Source: Nocardioides albertanoniae (GTDB taxonomy: Bacteria; Actinomycetota; Actinomycetes; Propionibacteriales; Nocardioidaceae). From it: DNA of 64,000 nt. The DNA lies in NCBI RefSeq assembly GCF_006716315.1, contig NZ_VFOV01000001.1, positions 1,036,501 to 1,100,500 on the forward strand, given 5' to 3'. The position numbers were made by a program, and so were the translations under genes. Position 1 is the stretch's first letter, and each line of letters starts with the position of its first letter. Below the pieces are notes generated by a model. It was not told the origin of the DNA. It saw only the letters and a list, made by a program, of their open reading frames with translations, and made no database searches. Below, one piece after another: positions 20,755-54,743 of the stretch.

Positions 20755-20870
20755 GACACTTCGCCACAGGGTCGCGGCGTAGCTGCGGCCCGGCGTAACC
20801 CATAAAGAAAATCGCCCACTTGGGCGTCTACCCCGGTACCTAGTACGGCCGGAGAGAAGGAGCAGGCAGG

Positions 20871-39782: not shown

Positions 39783-39819
39783 GCGGTCGTGCTGCTGGAA
39801 CGGGCCGGCGCGACGAGGG

Positions 39820-39888
39820 GTAACACGTCGTTCGTAGGACTACTCGCCCGTTCTGAACGACCGGATAGTCCTCCGAACGACGTGTTAC
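39820..39888. repeat. 69-bp palindromic element between hrpA and the next gene
   Basis: GTAACACGTCGTTCG (39820-39834) pairs perfectly with 39874-39888, AGGACTA (39836-39842) with TAGTCCT (39866-39872), and CGTTC with GAACG in the centre. The whole 69 bases fold on themselves. It may be a terminator for hrpA, but the following gene runs in the same direction. The CGTTCG-AGGACTA unit occurs as forward then inverted copies, like the other repeat clusters here. Confidence 0.8.
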
Positions 39889-39918
39889 AGCGCGCGGCGG
39901 CCCGCTAGGCTCGAACGG

Positions 39919-40850: not shown

Positions 40851-40871
40851 GGTGTTGAGATGGAGGAAATG

Positions 40872-42245
40872 GTGCGGCGCACGCGGCTGACAACGGCGCT
40901 TCTCGCGACGGTTCTCACGGCGACGCTCGCCGCCTGCGGTGGTGAACCGGCCCCGGAGCCGTCACCGAGCGCCGCGACGAAGGCGCCGGCCAAGGCGACG
41001 CTCGTCTTCGGCGTCTCGGGCCACAAGAAGCTGGTCGACACCTACAAGCAGCTAGCGGCCGAATACACCCGCGCCGTCCCCAACGTCACCGTCGAGGTGA
41101 AGTCCTGGCCCACCGAGGACCAGCTCACCGCCGCGATGAAGAGCGGGGAGAAGGTCGACGTGGTGCTCACCCCGCGCGCCGACGTGGCCGGTTTCGCCGA
41201 AGACAAGCGGATCCAGCCCGTCGACACCTTGCTGGAGGCTCGCAACGTCGACTTCGGCGACAAGTACTCCCGTGAGGCGATGGAGGACTTCTCCGTCGAC
41301 CGTCGCCTCGAGTGCATGCCCTACTCCGTCTCGCCGCAGGTCGTCTACGTCAACACCGGACTCGTCGACCTGGCCGGGATGAAGGAAGCCGGTGTGCCCA
41401 CGCCGAGCGCCCGGGCCGACGGTTCGCTGCGCAACTGGACTCTCGAGCAGTTCAGCTCGACGATGACCTACGCCGGCGAGCACAAGAAGGGTGTGCGAGG
41501 CACCTACGTCGAGCAGAACCTCTCGGCGCTCATGCCCTGGCTCGCCGGTGCCGGCGCCACCCTCTTCGACGACCCGCTGACTCCGACGTCCACGGCGCTC
41601 GGTGACTCCGCCGGCGCCTACGAGGACCTCGTCGAGGCGTTCAGCCAGCCCAACGTGCTGGCCACCAACAAGGACCTCGGCAAGCGCACCCCGTTCCAGG
41701 CCTTCAAGCAGGGCCGCCTGGTCGCGTTGGCCGGTGACCGGTCGCTGGTCTCCGACCTGCGCGCCACCGAGGGCATCGAGTGGGACGTGATGCCGATGCC
41801 GGGCGGCAACGGCACCACCGGTGAGTACGCTGGCCTGTGCATGGGCTCGAAGACCGCCGACGCCGACACCGCGGCCGACTTCCTCGCCTACCTCATCTCG
41901 ACCGAGTCGGTCGTGAAGATGGTCCGCACCGGCCACTTCGTGCCGGTCAACTCCGAGGTCGGCTATGCGCCGGTCTTCACCCAGCCCGAGCGCAACCCCA
42001 AGAACGCCCGCATCTTCACCGACACCGTGCGTGACATGCAGGTGCTTCCCGAGGCCTCCCAGATCACCCAGCTGCAGAAGATCGCCGCCCAGGCCGTACG
42101 CGGTTCGATGACCGTCGCCGAGCCCGACCAGATCGAGGACTTCGCCGTTCAGATCGACGAGCTCTCCAAGACCGTCTTCCCCCAGCCCACCCCTTCCTCG
42201 TCCCCGTCGACCTCTCCCTCAGGCTCTCCCTCCCCGAGCGCCTGA
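40872..42245 (+). CDS. ABC-type solute-binding lipoprotein (family 1), orphan
   Basis: A 457-residue lipoprotein. The signal peptide ends in a lipobox LAAC (cysteine near residue 22), followed by a Pro/Ala linker and a family 1 solute-binding fold (AGEHKKGVRGTYVEQN, WLAGAGATLFDDPLTP, PMPGGNGTTGEYAGLCMGS). This type binds sugars or glycerol phosphates. GTG 40872 is chosen, 5 bases after GGAGG; ATG 40860 and 40869 are in frame. The C-terminus ends in a Ser/Pro-rich tail. No permease or ATPase gene is adjacent, so it must work with distant partners or as a sensor. Confidence 0.88.
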   Translation: MRRTRLTTALLATVLTATLAACGGEPAPEPSPSAATKAPAKATLVFGVSGHKKLVDTYKQLAAEYTRAVPNVTVEVKSWPTEDQLTAAMKSGEKVDVVLTPRADVAGFAEDKRIQPVDTLLEARNVDFGDKYSREAMEDFSVDRRLECMPYSVSPQVVYVNTGLVDLAGMKEAGVPTPSARADGSLRNWTLEQFSSTMTYAGEHKKGVRGTYVEQNLSALMPWLAGAGATLFDDPLTPTSTALGDSAGAYEDLVEAFSQPNVLATNKDLGKRTPFQAFKQGRLVALAGDRSLVSDLRATEGIEWDVMPMPGGNGTTGEYAGLCMGSKTADADTAADFLAYLISTESVVKMVRTGHFVPVNSEVGYAPVFTQPERNPKNARIFTDTVRDMQVLPEASQITQLQKIAAQAVRGSMTVAEPDQIEDFAVQIDELSKTVFPQPTPSSSPSTSPSGSPSPSA

Positions 42246-42246
42246 C

Positions 42247-42395
42247 GGTCGAGAGGTCAGGCCTGCAGGTCGAGAAGTCAGGCCCGCAGGGCGAGAAGTC
42301 ACTTCTGCAGGCTGAGAGGTCAGACGGTGACGTGTCGACCTGCAGACGTGACGCCTCGGCCTGCAGGAGTGACTTCTCGGCTGCGGGGGTCAGGA
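42247..42395. repeat. 21-bp repeat cluster, forward then inverted (copy 1)
   Basis: Four forward units of 21 bp (start 42247, 42268, 42289, 42310; pattern GGYCGAGARGTCA, 3 variable bases, CTGCA) are followed by a CGTG spacer and three inverted units (42335, 42356, 42377). The first unit starts 2 bases after the solute-binding gene stop and the last overlaps the end of rnd, including its stop codon. A second cluster of the same unit lies at 51875. No known element matches. Confidence 0.9.
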
Positions 42396-43697
42396 GTCGG
42401 AGGAGTCGTCGTCGGGCTCGGCGTGCAGGATGGCGTCGGTGAGGAGCGGGGCGGTGAGGGCGATCTGCCAGCCTCGAGCGCCGAGGCCGGCGAGGCGCTC
42501 GATGATGTCGTCGAGGAGTGCGCCGGGCTCGCGGGTCTTGGGCGGAGCCCACATGGTGCGGCGCAGGAAGTCGGGGGTGAGGAGGTTCTCGGCGGGCAGG
42601 TTGCGCTCCTCGGCCAGAGCGTTGACCGACTCGCGGGCCAGGGCGAGGCGCCGTGCGGCGACCGGGTCCTTGTCGGACCACGCGCGCGGCGGGGGAGGGC
42701 CGTCGGAGCGGGGTGAGCGCACCGGCAGCTCGTCCTCGCCCATCGTGACGGCGTCGTCGAGCGCCTTGAGCCACGAGGTCACGTAGCGCTCGGCGCCACG
42801 ACCGTGGAAGCCCTTCAGCCCGAGGAGCGAGGCCTTGTCCTGGGGGAGCTCCTGCGACGCGGCCACGATCGCGGCGTCGGGGATGATCCGGCTCGGCGTG
42901 ACGTCGCGCTGCTGCGCGATCCGGTCACGCTCGGTCCACAGCCCGCGCACCGCGGCGAGACCGCGGCGGCCGCGGACGCGATGCATCCCGGACGTACGCC
43001 GCCAGGCATCGACGCGCACCGGCGCCTCGAAGCCGCGCAGCCAGTTGAACTCCTGCCGGGCCCACTCGTCCTTGCCCTGCTCGACGAGCTCGGCGGCGAG
43101 CGCTTCGCGGAGCTCGACGAGCACCTCGACATCGAGAGCTGCGTACTCGAGCCAGGCATCCGGCAGCGGCCGGGTCGACCAGTCGGCGGCCGAGTGCTCC
43201 TTGAGCATCGTGAACCCGAGCACGGTCTCGACCAGGGTGCCGAGCCCGACGCGCGGGTAGCCCAGCAGGCGTCCGGCGAGCTCGGTGTCGAACAGCGCCG
43301 TCGGGTGCAGCCCCAGCTCACTGAGGCACGGAAGGTCTTGGGTGGCGGCGTGCAGGATCCACTCGGTGCCGTCGAGCGCATCGATCAGGGGCTGCATCGT
43401 GGTCAGCCCGATCGGGTCGATCAGCCAGCTCCCGGACCCAACGCGTCGCAGCTGGAGGAGGTAGGCGCGGTTGGAGTAGCGATAGCCGGAGGCGCGCTCG
43501 GCGTCGATCCCGACGGGTCCGGTGCCGCGGGCGAGCGCCTCGGCGGCCTTGGCCAGGCCGTCGTCGGTGTCGATCACCGCGGGCAGCCCGTCGCGCAGCG
43601 TCAGCAGGGGAGCCGGCGCGACCTCTTCCTCGGTCTCCGGTGCGATCGCGGCTTCGGCCTTCGGGTCGGTCTTCGGGTCTGGGTTCTCGTTGTTCAC
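42390..43697 (-). CDS. rnd: ribonuclease D
   Basis: A 435-residue 3'-5' exonuclease of the DEDD family with tRNA/stable RNA processing roles. Exo I is GIDAERASGYRYSNRAYL, exo II LHAATQDLPCL, and exo III has the YAALDVEVLVELRE segment; an HRDC-like domain follows from about residue 230. GTG 43697 overlaps the stop of the DUF3000 gene (GTGA), so translation is coupled. Its 3' end runs into the 21-bp repeat cluster. Confidence 0.92.
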   Translation of the reverse strand: MNNENPDPKTDPKAEAAIAPETEEEVAPAPLLTLRDGLPAVIDTDDGLAKAAEALARGTGPVGIDAERASGYRYSNRAYLLQLRRVGSGSWLIDPIGLTTMQPLIDALDGTEWILHAATQDLPCLSELGLHPTALFDTELAGRLLGYPRVGLGTLVETVLGFTMLKEHSAADWSTRPLPDAWLEYAALDVEVLVELREALAAELVEQGKDEWARQEFNWLRGFEAPVRVDAWRRTSGMHRVRGRRGLAAVRGLWTERDRIAQQRDVTPSRIIPDAAIVAASQELPQDKASLLGLKGFHGRGAERYVTSWLKALDDAVTMGEDELPVRSPRSDGPPPPRAWSDKDPVAARRLALARESVNALAEERNLPAENLLTPDFLRRTMWAPPKTREPGALLDDIIERLAGLGARGWQIALTAPLLTDAILHAEPDDDSSDS

Positions 43698-50021: not shown

Positions 50022-51368
50022 GTGTCCGTCCCCCACCAGGCCACCGCGAACCCGAAGCGGGTCGCGCTGGCAGCCTCGGTCGGCGCCACCATCGAGTGGT
50101 ACGACTTCTTCCTCTACGGCACGGCCGCCGGCCTCGTCTTCGACAAGCTCTACTTCAACGGGCTCAGCGGCACCGCCGCGACCTTCGCCTCCTTCGGCAC
50201 CTTCGCCGTCGGGTTCCTCGCTCGCCCGATCGGCGGCCTGATCTTCGGGCACTTCGGCGACCGGATCGGCCGCAAGACCATGCTGATCTGGACGCTCATG
50301 ATCATGGGTGTGGGCACGTCGCTGGTCGGGCTGCTGCCGACGTACGACTCCATCGGGGTGCTCGCCCCGATCGCCCTCGTGGTGCTCCGGATCCTGCAGG
50401 GGATCGGCGTCGGCGGTGAGTACGGCGGCGCGGTGCTGCTGGCGACCGAGTACGCCCCGAGAGGGCGGCGCGGGCTCTACGGCAGCTTCGCGCACATCGG
50501 TGTCCCGGGAGGGCTGGTGCTCGCCTCGGGAGCGTTCGCGATCGCCTCGCAGCTGCCCGACGCAGCCTTCCTGGCGTGGGGCTGGCGGGTCTGCTTCCTG
50601 ATCTCGATCGTGCTGCTCGGGATCGGCGCCTGGATCCGGCTCTCCATCATGGAGACGCCCTCCTTCCAGGAGGTGCAGGCGGAGAAGAAGGTCTCCAAGC
50701 TGCCGGTCGCGGAGCTCTTCCGGCGTCAGCCGCGCACGCTGCTGCTCGGCATGGGCACCCGGTTCGTGGAGGGGTTCACCTACAACCTCTACTCGGTCTT
50801 CCTGCTCTCCTACGCGGTGACCGATGCCGGCCTGAGCCGGTCGGTGGTGCTCGACGCGATCATGGCGGGCGCCCTGCTGGGTGTGATCATGACGGTCGTC
50901 GCCGGTGCGCTCAGCGACCGGTTCGGGCGCCGGCCGGTCTACACGGTCGGTGCTGTCACGGCGCTGGTCATCGCCTTCCCGGTCGCGGCAGCGGTGCAGT
51001 CGGGGGCGGTGGTGGCCTCGGTGGCGGCGTTCGTCGGTGGCCTCGGCCTGGTCTACGGCACCGTCTACGGGCCGTTGGCGGCGTTCTGGAGCGAGCTGTT
51101 CGACACCCGCTACCGGTTCTCCGCGCTCAACGCGCTCTATCAGATCTCCGGAGTGGTGGCCTCCGGGCTGACGCCGCTGATCGCGGCCGCCCTGGTGGCG
51201 CTCTCCGACGACCGCTCGCTGTGGTGGGTGGCCGGCTACAACGTCGTGGTCGCCGCGATCAGCTTGACCTGCATGTGGTTGCTGCCGGAGACGCGTGGCG
51301 AAGAGCTGCGGGACACTGCGGTGGATGATGCGCGGGCAGAGCCCGCGAGAGAGGTGGTGGCGTCATGA
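50022..51368 (+). CDS. MFS transporter, metabolite:H+ symporter family
   Basis: A 448-residue protein with 12 predicted membrane helices. ATIEWYDFFLYGTAAGL at the first helix and GHFGDRIGRKTMLIWTLMIMGVGTSLVGLLP are hallmarks of the MHS family. GTG 50022 is chosen because TAGGAGGACC lies just upstream, directly after ssuD. It likely imports the sulfonated or sulfone substrate, in place of the SsuABC transporter used by most bacteria; this is inference from position. Confidence 0.85.
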   Translation: MSVPHQATANPKRVALAASVGATIEWYDFFLYGTAAGLVFDKLYFNGLSGTAATFASFGTFAVGFLARPIGGLIFGHFGDRIGRKTMLIWTLMIMGVGTSLVGLLPTYDSIGVLAPIALVVLRILQGIGVGGEYGGAVLLATEYAPRGRRGLYGSFAHIGVPGGLVLASGAFAIASQLPDAAFLAWGWRVCFLISIVLLGIGAWIRLSIMETPSFQEVQAEKKVSKLPVAELFRRQPRTLLLGMGTRFVEGFTYNLYSVFLLSYAVTDAGLSRSVVLDAIMAGALLGVIMTVVAGALSDRFGRRPVYTVGAVTALVIAFPVAAAVQSGAVVASVAAFVGGLGLVYGTVYGPLAAFWSELFDTRYRFSALNALYQISGVVASGLTPLIAAALVALSDDRSLWWVAGYNVVVAAISLTCMWLLPETRGEELRDTAVDDARAEPAREVVAS

Positions 51369-51862
51369 CGAGCCCGCTGCGTACGAACCAGGATCTCGAC
51401 CAGGCCGCCCTGCGACAGGCCTTCGGGGTCTTCCCCAGCGGCGTGGTGGCGGTCGCTGCCGTCGTCGACGGACGCCCCGTCGGCCTGGCCGCGTCGTCGT
51501 TCACCTCGGTGTCGCTGGACCCTCCGCTGGTCTCCTTCTCGGTGGCCAACACCTCGAAGACCTGGCCCGACCTGCGGCGGTCCTCGCACCTCGGGGTCAC
51601 CGTGCTCGCCGAGCACCACGGCGAGGTCTGCCGCCAGCTCGCCGGCCCCGTCGACTCCCGCTTCGACGACCTCGTCGTCAGCGAGTCGCTCGACGGAGCC
51701 CTCACTCTCGACGAGGGCCTGGCCCGGTTCGACTGCTCGATCTACCGCGAGGTCGAGGCCGGCGACCACATCGTCGTGCTGCTCCGCCTCCACGCCGCCG
51801 ACCACGGCGCCGGCCAGCCCCTCGTCTTCCACCGCTCCAACTTCGGCCGCCTCGCCGGCTGA
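51365..51862 (+). CDS. flavin reductase (FMN/FAD), partner of the monooxygenases
   Basis: A 165-residue flavin reductase-like protein. QAFGVFPSGVVAVAAVVDGRPVGLAASSFTSVSLDPPLVSFSV and DHIVVLLRLHA are the family's core. Its ATG overlaps the MFS stop (ATGA). It presumably feeds FMNH2 to SfnG and SsuD. The 21-bp repeat cluster follows 12 bases after its stop, so this gene ends the operon. Confidence 0.88.
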   Translation: MTSPLRTNQDLDQAALRQAFGVFPSGVVAVAAVVDGRPVGLAASSFTSVSLDPPLVSFSVANTSKTWPDLRRSSHLGVTVLAEHHGEVCRQLAGPVDSRFDDLVVSESLDGALTLDEGLARFDCSIYREVEAGDHIVVLLRLHAADHGAGQPLVFHRSNFGRLAG

Positions 51863-51874
51863 CCTACCCCCTCC

Positions 51875-52025
51875 CGCCGAGAAGTCACCCCTGCAGGTCG
51901 AAGAGTCACCTCTGCAGGTCGAGTTGGCAGGACGTGGCCTCTCGACCTGCACAAGTGACGTTTCGGCCTGCACGAGCGACCTCTCGACCTGCGCGAGTGA
52001 CGTCTCGACCGGGCGGGGTGAGGCT
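51875..52025. repeat. 21-bp repeat cluster, forward then inverted (copy 2)
   Basis: Forward units start at 51875, 51896 and 51917 (the last is degenerate), a short spacer follows, then inverted units start at 51942, 51963, 51984 and 52005 (the last is partial). All are 21 bp long. The forward consensus GTCGAGAAGTCAC, two or three variable bases, CTGCA equals that of the cluster at 42247. It lies after the flavin reductase and before a co-directional gene, so it is not a convergent-gene terminator only. Confidence 0.9.
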
Positions 52026-52051: not shown

Positions 52052-52342
52052 ATGGATGTCGTCGGCGTCGTCGCTCTGTTCGGTCTGGTCCTGGTCTACT
52101 TCGCGATCGAGTCGTCGGAGAAGAAGGTCAGGTCGGAGGTGTCGCGCCGGATCGACCGGCTCGAGAGCAAGGTCGACCTGCTCCTGAAGCAGGCGGGGCT
52201 GGAGGAGCCGGCGCTCCCGCGCGAGGAGGAGATCCTGGCGCTGGCGCGCTCGGGCAAGAAGATCCAGGCGATCAAGGTCTACCGCGAGGTGACGGGCGCG
52301 GGGCTGGCCGAGGCCAAGAACGAGGTCGAGCGACTCACCTGA
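52052..52342 (+). CDS. small membrane protein with L7/L12 C-terminal-like domain
   Basis: A 96-residue protein. The first 20 residues are a membrane segment ([19 protein letters not shown]), then a short coiled-coil-like stretch ([22 protein letters not shown]), then a C-terminal domain resembling the ribosomal L7/L12 fold ([27 protein letters not shown]). Proteins of this build are known in actinobacteria; their role is unknown. It lies between the 21-bp repeat cluster and cgoX and may share the cgoX transcript. Confidence 0.75.
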
Positions 52343-52379: not shown

Positions 52380-53684
52380 GTGCGTGTCATCGTCGTTGGG
52401 GCAGGGATCGCGGGGCTGAGCGCGGCCCGTGATCTGTCGCTGAAGGGGCATCGGGTCACGGTGCTGGAGAGCTCCGACCGGGTCGGCGGAAAGGTCCGCG
52501 GTGAGTCGGTCGCCGGCCAGCTGGTCGACGTCGGCGCCGAGGCGATGCTCAACCGGCGGCCCGAAGGGGTCGCGCTCGCCCGGGAGATCGGTCTCGAGGT
52601 GGTGCACCCGACCGACGCGAAGTCGTCGATCTGGTCGCGGGGGTCGCTGCGGCCGATCCCGCGCTCGATCATGGGGGTGCCGCTCGACCTGGCCGGCCTG
52701 GAGTCGTCGGGCCTCCTCTCCGAGGAGACCCTCGAGGTCGTACGCCGCGAGCCCACGCTCCCGCCGGCGGACACCGACGTCGACACCTCGATCGGAGACC
52801 TCATCGCCGCCCGCTTCGGCGACGAGACGGCCGACCGGCTCGCCGAGCCGCTGCTCGCCGGGGTCTACGCCGGCCATGCTCGCTCGATCTCGGTGGCGGC
52901 GGCCGCCCCGCAGCTGTTCAAGCTGGCCGAGAGGGGCTCGCTGCTCGAAGCCGCTGCCGCGCTCCCGAGCTCGACGGTGCCGGTGTTCGCCGGGATCGAA
53001 GGTGGCATGTCGCGCCTGCCCGCCGCGTTGGCGGAGGGGTTGGACGTGCGGTTCGACGTGCCCGTCACCAAGGTCACGCGCACGGCACAGGGTTTCCTCG
53101 TCGAGGCCGGCGACGAGGCCGAGACGGCAGACGCGGTCGTGGTCGCGACGCCTGCCCCGGTTGCCGCGAGGCTGCTCGCCTCGACCGCTCCGTCGGCTGC
53201 TCGCGAGCTGGCGGGCATCGAGACCGCGAGCGTCGCGGTGGTCACCTTCGCCTTCCCCGACCTGCCCGCCGCGCTGGCCGGCAAGTCCGGATTCCTCGTG
53301 CCGCCGGTCGAGGACTGCGCGATCAAGGCCTCCACCTTCTCCTTCGCGAAGTGGGCATGGGTGGGAGAGCGCGGCCACTACCTGCGTACGTCGATCGGAC
53401 GCCACGGCGAGCCGCCCTCCGATGACGACGACCGCCTGGTCGCCGACTCCCTCGCGGCCCTCGAACGGATCGCGGGCATCACCGCGAAGCCGTCCGACGT
53501 GCACGTCCAGCGATGGCCCGACGCGCTCCCGCAGTATCCGGTCGGCCACCTCGACCGCGTCGCCCGCATCCGCGGCGCCGTACGCGGCGTGCCCGGTCTC
53601 GCTCTCGCCGGAGCCTCCTACGACGGCGTCGGCATCCCGGCGACGATCGGCTCCGGCCATCGGGCCGCGAACGCGATCGCCTGA
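52380..53684 (+). CDS. hemY: coproporphyrinogen III oxidase CgoX (HemY/HemG)
   Basis: A 434-residue FAD enzyme of the protoporphyrinogen-oxidase family. The N-terminal FAD motif [15 protein letters not shown] and the C-terminal [20 protein letters not shown] are typical. In actinobacteria it oxidises coproporphyrinogen III to coproporphyrin III in the coproporphyrin-dependent heme pathway. The start is GTG 52380. hemE (44412) and chdC (54829) belong to the same pathway but are separated from it by other genes. Confidence 0.9.
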
Positions 53685-53703
53685 GACCGCCCGCTCGTCA
53701 GAC

Positions 53704-53799
53704 GTCGAGTCGGCTCGTCCTGACCAAGATTGACGCCGAGTCGGCTCGTCATGACGCGCCGACTCGGCGCTGAATCCGGTCAGGACGAGCCGACTCGAC
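53704..53799. repeat. palindromic repeat cluster, GAGTCGGCTCGT family (copy 2)
   Basis: The outer arms are 22 bp long and perfectly paired (53704-53725 and 53778-53799; left arm begins GTCGAGTCGGCTCGT). Inside are a second forward unit (GCCGAGTCGGCTCG at 53735) and its inverse (CGCGCCGACTCGGCGC) around TCATGA. The unit equals that at 22989-23057. The cluster lies between the convergent cgoX and hydrolase genes, again as forward then inverted copies. Confidence 0.9.
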
Positions 53800-53804
53800 G
53801 GGGA

Positions 53805-54743
53805 TCAGTCGAGATCGCGCAAGAAGGTGATGATCGCGGCGAGAGCCTCCTTGGCGACCGGGGCGACGCCGGGCAGCGACATGAAGCCGTGGAACGCGGT
53901 GCCGTAGTCGACGAGGTCGACCGGTGTTCCGGCCGCACGCAGGGCGTCGGCATAGAGGGTGCCGTGGTCGCGGATCGGGTCGTGCAGGGCGGTGATGATG
54001 TGGGCCGGCGGCAGGTCGGCGTGGGAGTCGGCGCGCATGGGAGAGGCCTGCCAGGTCTCGTCGCCGTAGCGCGAACCCATGTAGAGGTGGCCGAACGTGC
54101 TCATCTGCTTCGAGGTCAGCACCGGGCCGTCGGCGTTGGCGGCCTCGGAGGGGAAGGTCTCATACATCTCCACCGCCGGATAGATCAGCACCTGGGCGCG
54201 GATCGGGGGACCGCCCGCGTCGCGCGCCATCAGCGAGACGACGGCCGCGAGGTTGCCGCCGGCGCTGTCGCCCATCACCGAGATCTTCGAAGGGTCTCCG
54301 CCCAGGTCATCGACGTGTTTCGCCACCCACTCCACCGTCGACCAGGCGTCCTCGACCCCGGCCGGGAACGGGTGCTCGGGGGCCAGTCGGTAGGACGGTG
54401 CGACCACGATCGAGCCGGTCTCGGCGGCGACGTTGCTCGACACCCAGGCGCTCTGCTCCGGGGTGCCGAGGCACCAGCCGCCGCCGTGGAAGTTGATGAC
54501 CACCGGAGCGGGCCCGCTGAGCCCGCGGGGCGTGTAGATCAGGAGACGTCGCCCGTCGACGTACGTCTCCTCGATCTCGACGTCGGCGGGGCGCCCGAAG
54601 AGGAAGCCGACGACCGGTCCGGTGCGGAAACCCTCACGCTGGTTGCGCAGCGCGATCATCTCCTCCGCGGTGGTCGGCACCTTGACCAGGCGGGCCTGGA
54701 GGAAGGCGAGGGCTCGGGCGCGCAGCGGCAGGCGGTCACTCAT
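53805..54743 (-). CDS. alpha/beta hydrolase, HSL family (third copy type)
   Basis: A 312-residue family IV esterase with oxyanion [11 protein letters not shown], nucleophile in GDSAGGNLA and histidine in [13 protein letters not shown]. An N-terminal helical region ([23 protein letters not shown]) precedes it. I start at ATG 54743 because the longer frame crosses the chdC start. It is antisense to the heme genes and splits cgoX from chdC. Substrate unknown. Confidence 0.87.

Follow-up and report, generated by a model that had tools for sequence, protein, structure and literature searches.

What does a mirrored array of short repeats do between two genes that run towards each other, and to which class of bacterial repeats does it belong? 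The question is raised by a locus of Nocardioides albertanoniae that lies in the window, by which we mean the whole 64,000-nucleotide stretch of DNA that was analysed. An extracellular solute-binding gene (putative lipoprotein; 40860–42245, plus strand; Pfam SBP_bac_8 and open reading frame) ends at the array (cluster 1). An rnd-like 3'-5' exonuclease gene with an HRDC domain (42390–43697, minus strand; Pfam DNA_pol_A_exo1 and HRDC, and gene calls; start codon uncertain) converges onto it.

Two mirrored arrays in the window

Cluster 1 begins with four forward 21-bp units on the plus strand (42239–42322, starts at 42239, 42260, 42281 and 42302). They are followed by a 5-nt centre, GACGG (42323–42327), which would form a loop, and by an inverted arm on the minus strand (42328–42381) with two full units, starting at 42328 and 42349, and a half unit, TGACTTCTCGGC, at 42370–42381. 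The spacing within an arm is 21 bp, and the family of forward-then-inverted 21-bp units described in the original prediction is indeed present. Its count of four forward and three inverted units is correct for the forward arm; the third inverted copy is only the half unit. Two details did not hold. Exact CTGCAG, said to recur at each unit junction, occurs just four times in cluster 1, and the rnd stop codon (42390–42392), said to be overlapped by the last unit, lies just past the recognisable half unit. The stop codon inside the 21-bp frame of a unit belongs to the solute-binding gene (42243–42245).

Cluster 2 consists of three forward units (51867–51929, plus strand, starts at 51867, 51888 and 51909), a centre (51930–51934) and four inverted units (51935–52018, minus strand, starts at 51935, 51956, 51977 and 51998). 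It is located at the 3' end of a flavin-reductase-like gene (51365–51862, plus strand; Pfam Flavin_Reduct and orthologs). Downstream lies a small gene (52052–52342, plus strand) with a C-terminal match to the Pfam Ribosomal_L12 domain. A 17-base consensus, TGCAGGTCGAGAAGTCA, with up to three mismatches matches the window 11 times, where shuffled sequence would give 0.16 matches; clusters 1 and 2 account for all 11.

A search of positions 42100–42600 around cluster 1 found no terminator-like site and no U-tract. This agrees with the earlier statement that no known terminator fits, and an intrinsic terminator (a GC-rich hairpin followed by a U-tract) was rejected on this ground. An Rfam search of the window gave nothing at the clusters; the sole match, to the L17 ribosomal protein leader at 20813–20857, is barely over the threshold. 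Two other long inverted repeats were noticed in the window. One is centred around 53745 (53650–53830), with 42-nt arms that are 83% complementary and CGAGTCGGCTCGTC on both arms; the other is centred around 39853 (39800–39900), with arms that are 76% complementary and AACACGTCGTTCG on both arms.

A family of dispersed arrays in the source genome

The source genome is a single contig of 4.97 Mb. Searched with the unit and at most two mismatches allowed, it gave 206 matches, compared to 2 for the reversed control. Using a 21-position weight matrix on the fetched loci, we found 82 groups; leaving out eight single-hit groups gives at least 74 clusters of two or more units, with 465 units, and this is a lower bound because the loci were taken for matching the unit. 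Thus, the many clusters expected of a family exist beyond the two in the window. The units adjoin head to tail without unique spacers, and the exclusion of a CRISPR array also stands.

The plan of the clusters is uniform: 66 of the 74 are forward-then-inverted, seven are one-armed, and one, with an inverted-then-forward junction, looks like two neighbouring clusters side by side. Arms contain 1–9 forward and 1–11 inverted units, and of 322 spacings within arms, 311 are exactly 21 bp. Loop length (spacing minus 21) was taken from the 64 simple two-armed arrays and is 6, 5, 4, 3 and 8 nt in 41, 13, 7, 2 and 1 of them; it is 5–6 nt in 54 of these 64 and in 53 of 59 arrays of related genomes. The lengths of the forward and inverted arms are correlated in the source genome (rho 0.41, n = 66, p 0.0006). 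The correlation in relatives is not significant (rho 0.18, n = 43), and arm-length matching was rejected as a family rule. Cluster counts per 500-kb bin are 13, 12, 9, 2, 8, 0, 7, 9, 5 and 9, somewhat biased to the first bins, as places with two mismatches were entered up to about 0.6 Mb. The 2.5–3.0 Mb bin holds none of the 74 clusters and the 1.5–2.0 Mb bin two, while the other bins hold 5–13.

Runs of identical adjoining units occur inside the arms, which indicates that the arms may have been lengthened by tandem duplication. Identical 40-bp central modules, including the loop, are found at four distant loci (535564, 920515, 1697331 and 3178705); therefore, some of the copying between loci is recent. 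Such copying also fits a neutral or selfish dispersed repeat, which would survive where it is harmless, behind stop codons and mainly between convergent genes, with any covariation of its arms produced by template switching between the arms of the palindrome. We regard this explanation as possible but rather doubtful.

Position relative to genes

The gene context was determined with a GC3-based gene caller, and six own and four relatives' two-armed clusters inside called open reading frames were left out of the enrichment test. The 61 placed two-armed clusters of the source genome lie between convergent genes in 37 cases, tandem genes in 22 and divergent genes in two. At control junctions, taken from 39 fixed-position 20-kb Nocardioides stretches and the window, the convergent share is 117 of 811 (Fisher p 5e-15). 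The same was found in relatives (40 loci; genomes G038, G099 and G172), where 23 of 39 placed clusters are convergent (p 7e-10). The median gap from own clusters to the neighbouring 3' end is 13.5 bp (n = 100), and to 5' ends it is 71 bp (n = 34); the relatives' medians are −6 and 47 bp. Of the seven one-armed arrays, four are in tandem context in sense orientation, two are called divergent and one is inside an open reading frame; one of the divergent arrays is flanked by genes for a WYL regulator and a histidine phosphatase.

It was originally predicted that all clusters would be intergenic. This is contradicted by an array that lies in frame within a 2-oxoacid dehydrogenase E2 acyltransferase gene (L077:2476–2538), between the lipoyl and E3-binding domains; a position in such an interdomain region also speaks for a selfish repeat. 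In addition, at L042 the array makes up the C-terminal part of a GC3-rich frame, with no stop codon in it, and at L078 it lies within a long frame of this kind. A 21-bp period kept only for the reading frame is possible for the in-frame arrays but was rejected in view of 22-bp arrays in other species.

The reading that we tentatively prefer, at somewhat short of an even chance, is a dispersed element similar to REP/BIME that acts as a two-way 3'-end hairpin with arms grown by tandem duplication. An RNA polymerase coming from either flanking gene would meet forward units first and then inverted ones, and a hairpin could form in the transcript in both directions. We infer that this hairpin may stop transcription or block 3'-5' decay, and may prevent transcription of one convergent gene from entering the other.

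Folding and covariation of the centre

According to the sequence and its covariation, the innermost forward and inverted units would pair into a stem of up to about 20 bp, with a loop of mostly 5–6 nt. RNA folding gave z values of −7.4 for cluster 1 and −5.8 for cluster 2, and in each of the two clusters the innermost pair is imperfect, with 16 of 21 positions matching. To assess covariation, each forward unit was compared with its mirror partner, and the partners were permuted between clusters (2000 permutations). The innermost pairs of the source genome covary at positions 14–16 and 18. At positions 15, 16 and 18, the agreement is 0.62, 0.58 and 0.72 against 0.38, 0.26 and 0.49 expected, and none of the 2000 permutations was as high at any of the three; over the whole unit it is 0.801 against 0.769, and at position 1 it is also under chance. 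In relatives (59 arrays, 52 innermost pairs, permuted within genomes), the agreement is 0.679 against 0.560 in the core triplet and 0.774 against 0.654 in the linker, with 0 of 2000 permutations as high in both cases; position 18 is not significant. The paired centre is therefore real across the family.

The outer ranks show no overall covariation, either in the source genome or in relatives. In the source genome, the second pair is even under chance (0.717 against 0.739, P 0.016; positions 1, 2, 14 and 15 at P 0.0015 to 0.014). In the outer ranks of relatives, agreement in the second pair is slightly under chance in the spacer (P 0.047); single linker positions of this pair reach P 0.003–0.04 with genomes pooled, and the linker block within genomes gives P 0.10. 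A long RNA duplex with both arms co-adapted, which the fold suggests, was therefore rejected. Nor was there evidence of selection on the sense RNA through a G-U bias. In 20 tandem-context arrays, the ratio of G-U to A-C mismatches in sense RNA at positions 9–20 is 10:9 in innermost and 27:28 in outer pairs, and over all positions it is 14:26 and 43:56, with more A-C.

Covariation that is confined to the loop-proximal pair and has no strand bias is also consistent with a selfish repeat. During replication, the two arms of a hairpin can be kept complementary by template switching, according to the part of PMC8794818 available to us, and this process may explain the innermost covariation.

The regular spacing raises another possibility, an array of protein-binding sites on double-stranded DNA. 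A factor would read CGA-NNN-GTCA sites, which recur on the same face of the helix at intervals of two turns, and the array would serve as a polar roadblock, a nucleoid anchor or a gyrase-type supercoil sink. The exact 21-bp spacing within arms speaks for it, as do outer units that keep the core without arm pairing and the 21- or 22-bp arrays of other units in other Nocardioides described below; REPs are known to bind gyrase, DNA polymerase I and IHF (PMC1525189, in the part available). However, the spacing across the centre is 24–29, mostly 27 bp, which is not a whole number of turns, covariation of the innermost pair is unexpected for a protein site, and linker types vary between arrays of one genome. 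We consider such an array unlikely. A protein polymerising along the DNA, as originally proposed, is allowed by the 21-bp spacing and by outer units without covariation, but is needless for the covarying innermost hairpin.

Distribution of the arrays among genomes

A two-unit linker-free probe (up to two mismatches) was run against 215 genomes of the genus. It gave 83–499 matches in ten genomes, including 331 in the source genome, 14 in one genome (G229) and no more than five in each of the other 204; the reversed control gave 7 in the source genome. The source genome and its eight nearest by the Rnd protein (85–88% identity) are nine of the ten array-rich genomes, and among the matches listed the remaining genomes have Rnd identity of 74% or less; kinship of this clade was judged from Rnd alone. 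The tenth array-rich genome, G206 (a 2.1-Mb assembly), and G229 group with distant genomes by Rnd. Thus, the trait also occurs outside the clade. With a three-unit probe and a looser core, 18 of 215 genomes of the genus match, some by single matches like those of the control.

An order-wide search (one mismatch) matched 4 of 245 genomes, namely the source, its congener G048 and, with single matches, two others. A strict exact centre pattern, applied to 84,980 species, gave nine stretches, and only the three from Nocardioides have a 21-bp array in the printed sequence: Nocardioides albus JCM 3185, N. luteus JCM 3358 and Nocardioides sp. YR527. The other six records are from other bacteria and have no 21-bp array in the printed sequence. 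The repeat was thus not seen widely outside the genus, as the original prediction required. Three of the six, from Bacteroidaceae, are mutually similar and may carry a separate repeat. Plasmid or phage carriage was rejected, since a search with cluster 1 gave no match among plasmids and the exact central pattern was absent among viral contigs.

Arrays of a similar plan exist in Nocardioides outside the clade. Genomes G055, G135, G177 and G012 have 21-bp arrays of quite different units, found by a 21-spaced CGANNNGNCA probe that imposes the period and part of the sequence. The probe was not involved in finding L228, a one-armed 21-bp array from one of the fixed-position stretches (G055), nor the arrays of G048, G173 and G164, whose units measure about 22 bp and have a related core; the array of G164 is one-armed. 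In other Nocardioides loci (L213–L225 and L227), we noted 21-bp arrays, several of them forward-then-inverted, with units unlike those of the window. In G011, we noted an inverted array, GTGGCGGCACACGACATC, that repeats about every 30 bp (L257:12950–13200).

A sequence-free scan found 44 hairpins in 39 fixed 20-kb Nocardioides stretches, of which two have periodic arms (22 and 30 bp). The same scan of 40 own array loci found periodic arms in 31 of 47 hairpins (19 at 21 bp, 11 at 42 and 1 at 31), and in six outgroup stretches it found one non-periodic hairpin. Periodic arms as a general property of Nocardioides were rejected on 2 of 44 hairpins, though at least 7 of the 39 stretches come from known array genomes.

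Orthologous junctions in relatives

The presence of arrays and the linker types at the rnd, cluster 2, L003 and L068 junctions were read by eye. At the rnd junction, an array is present in seven of nine clade genomes (the source included), and the other two have an unrelated long inverted repeat and a remnant of one unit. No array was seen at this junction in 21 non-clade loci (30 of 215 loci fetched). The cluster 2 junction has an array in five of the seven relatives with the ortholog and none in two. The array seems to be attached to the upstream gene. It lies behind the same upstream gene in G010, which lacks the small downstream gene, and in G038, where all that follows of that small gene is its C-terminal part.

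In the 40 loci of G038, G099 and G172, 20 of 47 relatives' arrays, picked via the central-hairpin pattern in these three genomes, are at an orthologous place among own-genome loci. Together with the rnd junction, this goes against the expectation that arrays would be absent at orthologous sites of close relatives, and sites held so often across species are also a point against a selfish repeat. Other junctions are less stable. At L003, three of eight relatives have an array, four are compact without one, and one has another neighbour and no array; a 14-bp stretch in G010 could be a remnant. Since this junction is empty in five of eight relatives and that of cluster 2 in two of seven, the array is dispensable there. 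Presence or absence at orthologous junctions is what a selfish repeat would leave. At L068, three of eight relatives have GTCGG-type arrays, one has a third-type array, and four have an unrelated long hairpin; unrelated hairpins at some of the same junctions would not be expected of a selfish repeat.

Placement, the hairpin centre, these unrelated hairpins and attachment to the upstream gene are the grounds on which we favour the two-way 3'-end hairpin. Against it are the missing U-tract, the absence of wobble bias, the imperfect centres of clusters 1 and 2 and the orthologous junctions that lack an array.

Two other repeats were seen during this comparison. An unrelated long inverted repeat with the motif TGTTGGTCTCGACACGC takes the place of the array at 3' junctions L299, L301, L302, L304, L102 and L106, and one copy of the motif is also present in own locus L063. 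Another short hairpin repeat, with a GAGCTTGCTCG core, occurs at L104, L105, L107, L140 and L143, and in the first three it adjoins the rnd-junction array.

In elements with Tn7-like end architecture, the transposase binds repeated sites at each end of the element. Direct repeats of about 21–22 bp, inverted at the two ends, and presence or absence at orthologous sites would suit leftover transposon ends of this kind. But almost nothing lies between the arms, the loop lengths and covariation suit a hairpin, and inspection of the L003 junction by eye shows no clear target duplication. This origin seems very improbable.

Core, linker and turnover of the unit

The core common to the source genome and its eight relatives is CGA-NNN-GTCA. 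CGA is kept in 92% of units in the source genome and 99% in relatives, its G and C in 99–100% and the last A in 90%; this conservation is partly circular, as the relatives' units were chosen by a core-weighted scan. The linker differs between species. In the source genome, 352 of 423 units have the TGCAGG type, 17 GTCGG and 8 a third type, with 46 unassigned; in relatives, 204 of 369 have GTCGG, 12 TGCAGG and 29 the third type, with 124 unassigned, and samples are small for several relatives (1–3 arrays each). A core kept while the linker largely changed argues, within the same partial circularity, against a selfish repeat. Many orthologous sites with a different commonest linker suggest that the linker has probably turned over genome-wide between species and that many sites are old. 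Under the two-way hairpin reading, copies would spread or overwrite each other across the genome, so that one unit type becomes dominant in each species, which is the pattern seen.

A related and quite unlikely interpretation is a satellite-like system, in which a factor reads CGA-NNN-GTCA in two-turn phase at gene ends while the rest of the unit is swept genome-wide in each species and the sites stay fixed.

Relation to known systems and significance

BOX elements of pneumococcus are stem-loops in which the number of repeated modules inside the element varies. Their sequence, module length and host are different, and in our arrays both arms repeat. MIRU/VNTR minisatellites vary in tandem copy number at fixed intergenic sites; the arrays here have, in addition, a second arm in mirror image and a centre that pairs as a hairpin.

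The earlier view was that no known REP/BIME element fits. Like the GTAG- and CGTC-tagged REPs in the available part of PMC3733652, the arrays are short high-copy palindromes (at least 74 clusters, 465 units) that lie mostly between convergent or unidirectional genes near 3' ends. They are extragenic and enriched in convergent context, except for the E2 gene, L078, L042 and the divergent one-armed array. This behaviour fits REP/BIME better than had been claimed. On the other hand, BIMEs are defined by units in alternating orientation (PMC2817692, in the part seen), whereas 66 of 74 clusters have a forward block and then an inverted block. The arms here are head-to-tail 21-bp arrays with every forward unit before the inverted ones, which sets them apart from the REPs of the same part of PMC3733652; Nocardioid* and Actinobacteri* are absent from the main text of that paper. 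The RAYT transposase domain (Y1_Tnp, PF01797) was found in 0 of 17 Nocardioides genomes and in 5 of 14 genomes of the control rings, and a RAYT-driven REP was rejected. CGTC REPs have no known dedicated transposase and do not require RAYT, according to the part of PMC3733652 available.

Streptomyces, also a GC-rich actinobacterium, has 3'-end stem-loops without a U-tract, and transcript ends from opposite strands overlap there (PMC8269248, available part). That part describes no repeat family with tandem arms. Uptake-sequence terminators (PMC2267715, available part) likewise are close complementary copies of a dispersed motif that form hairpins at gene ends, while here the copies are arrays of 21-bp units. 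In the portion of the open-licence literature covered, we found no printed description of the mirrored 21-bp arrays.

The actinobacteria, a group in which few studies have dealt with how transcription ends, would gain from this family an abundant 3'-end element specific to one lineage. The orthologous junctions, some occupied by an array, some by another hairpin and some empty, amount to a natural experiment. The change of the linker under a constant core raises the question of how hundreds of dispersed 21-bp units stay alike within a genome. If the satellite-like interpretation is true, hundreds of short sites scattered over a bacterial genome would be evolving in concert, and the genus would conserve the two-turn period more than the sequence.
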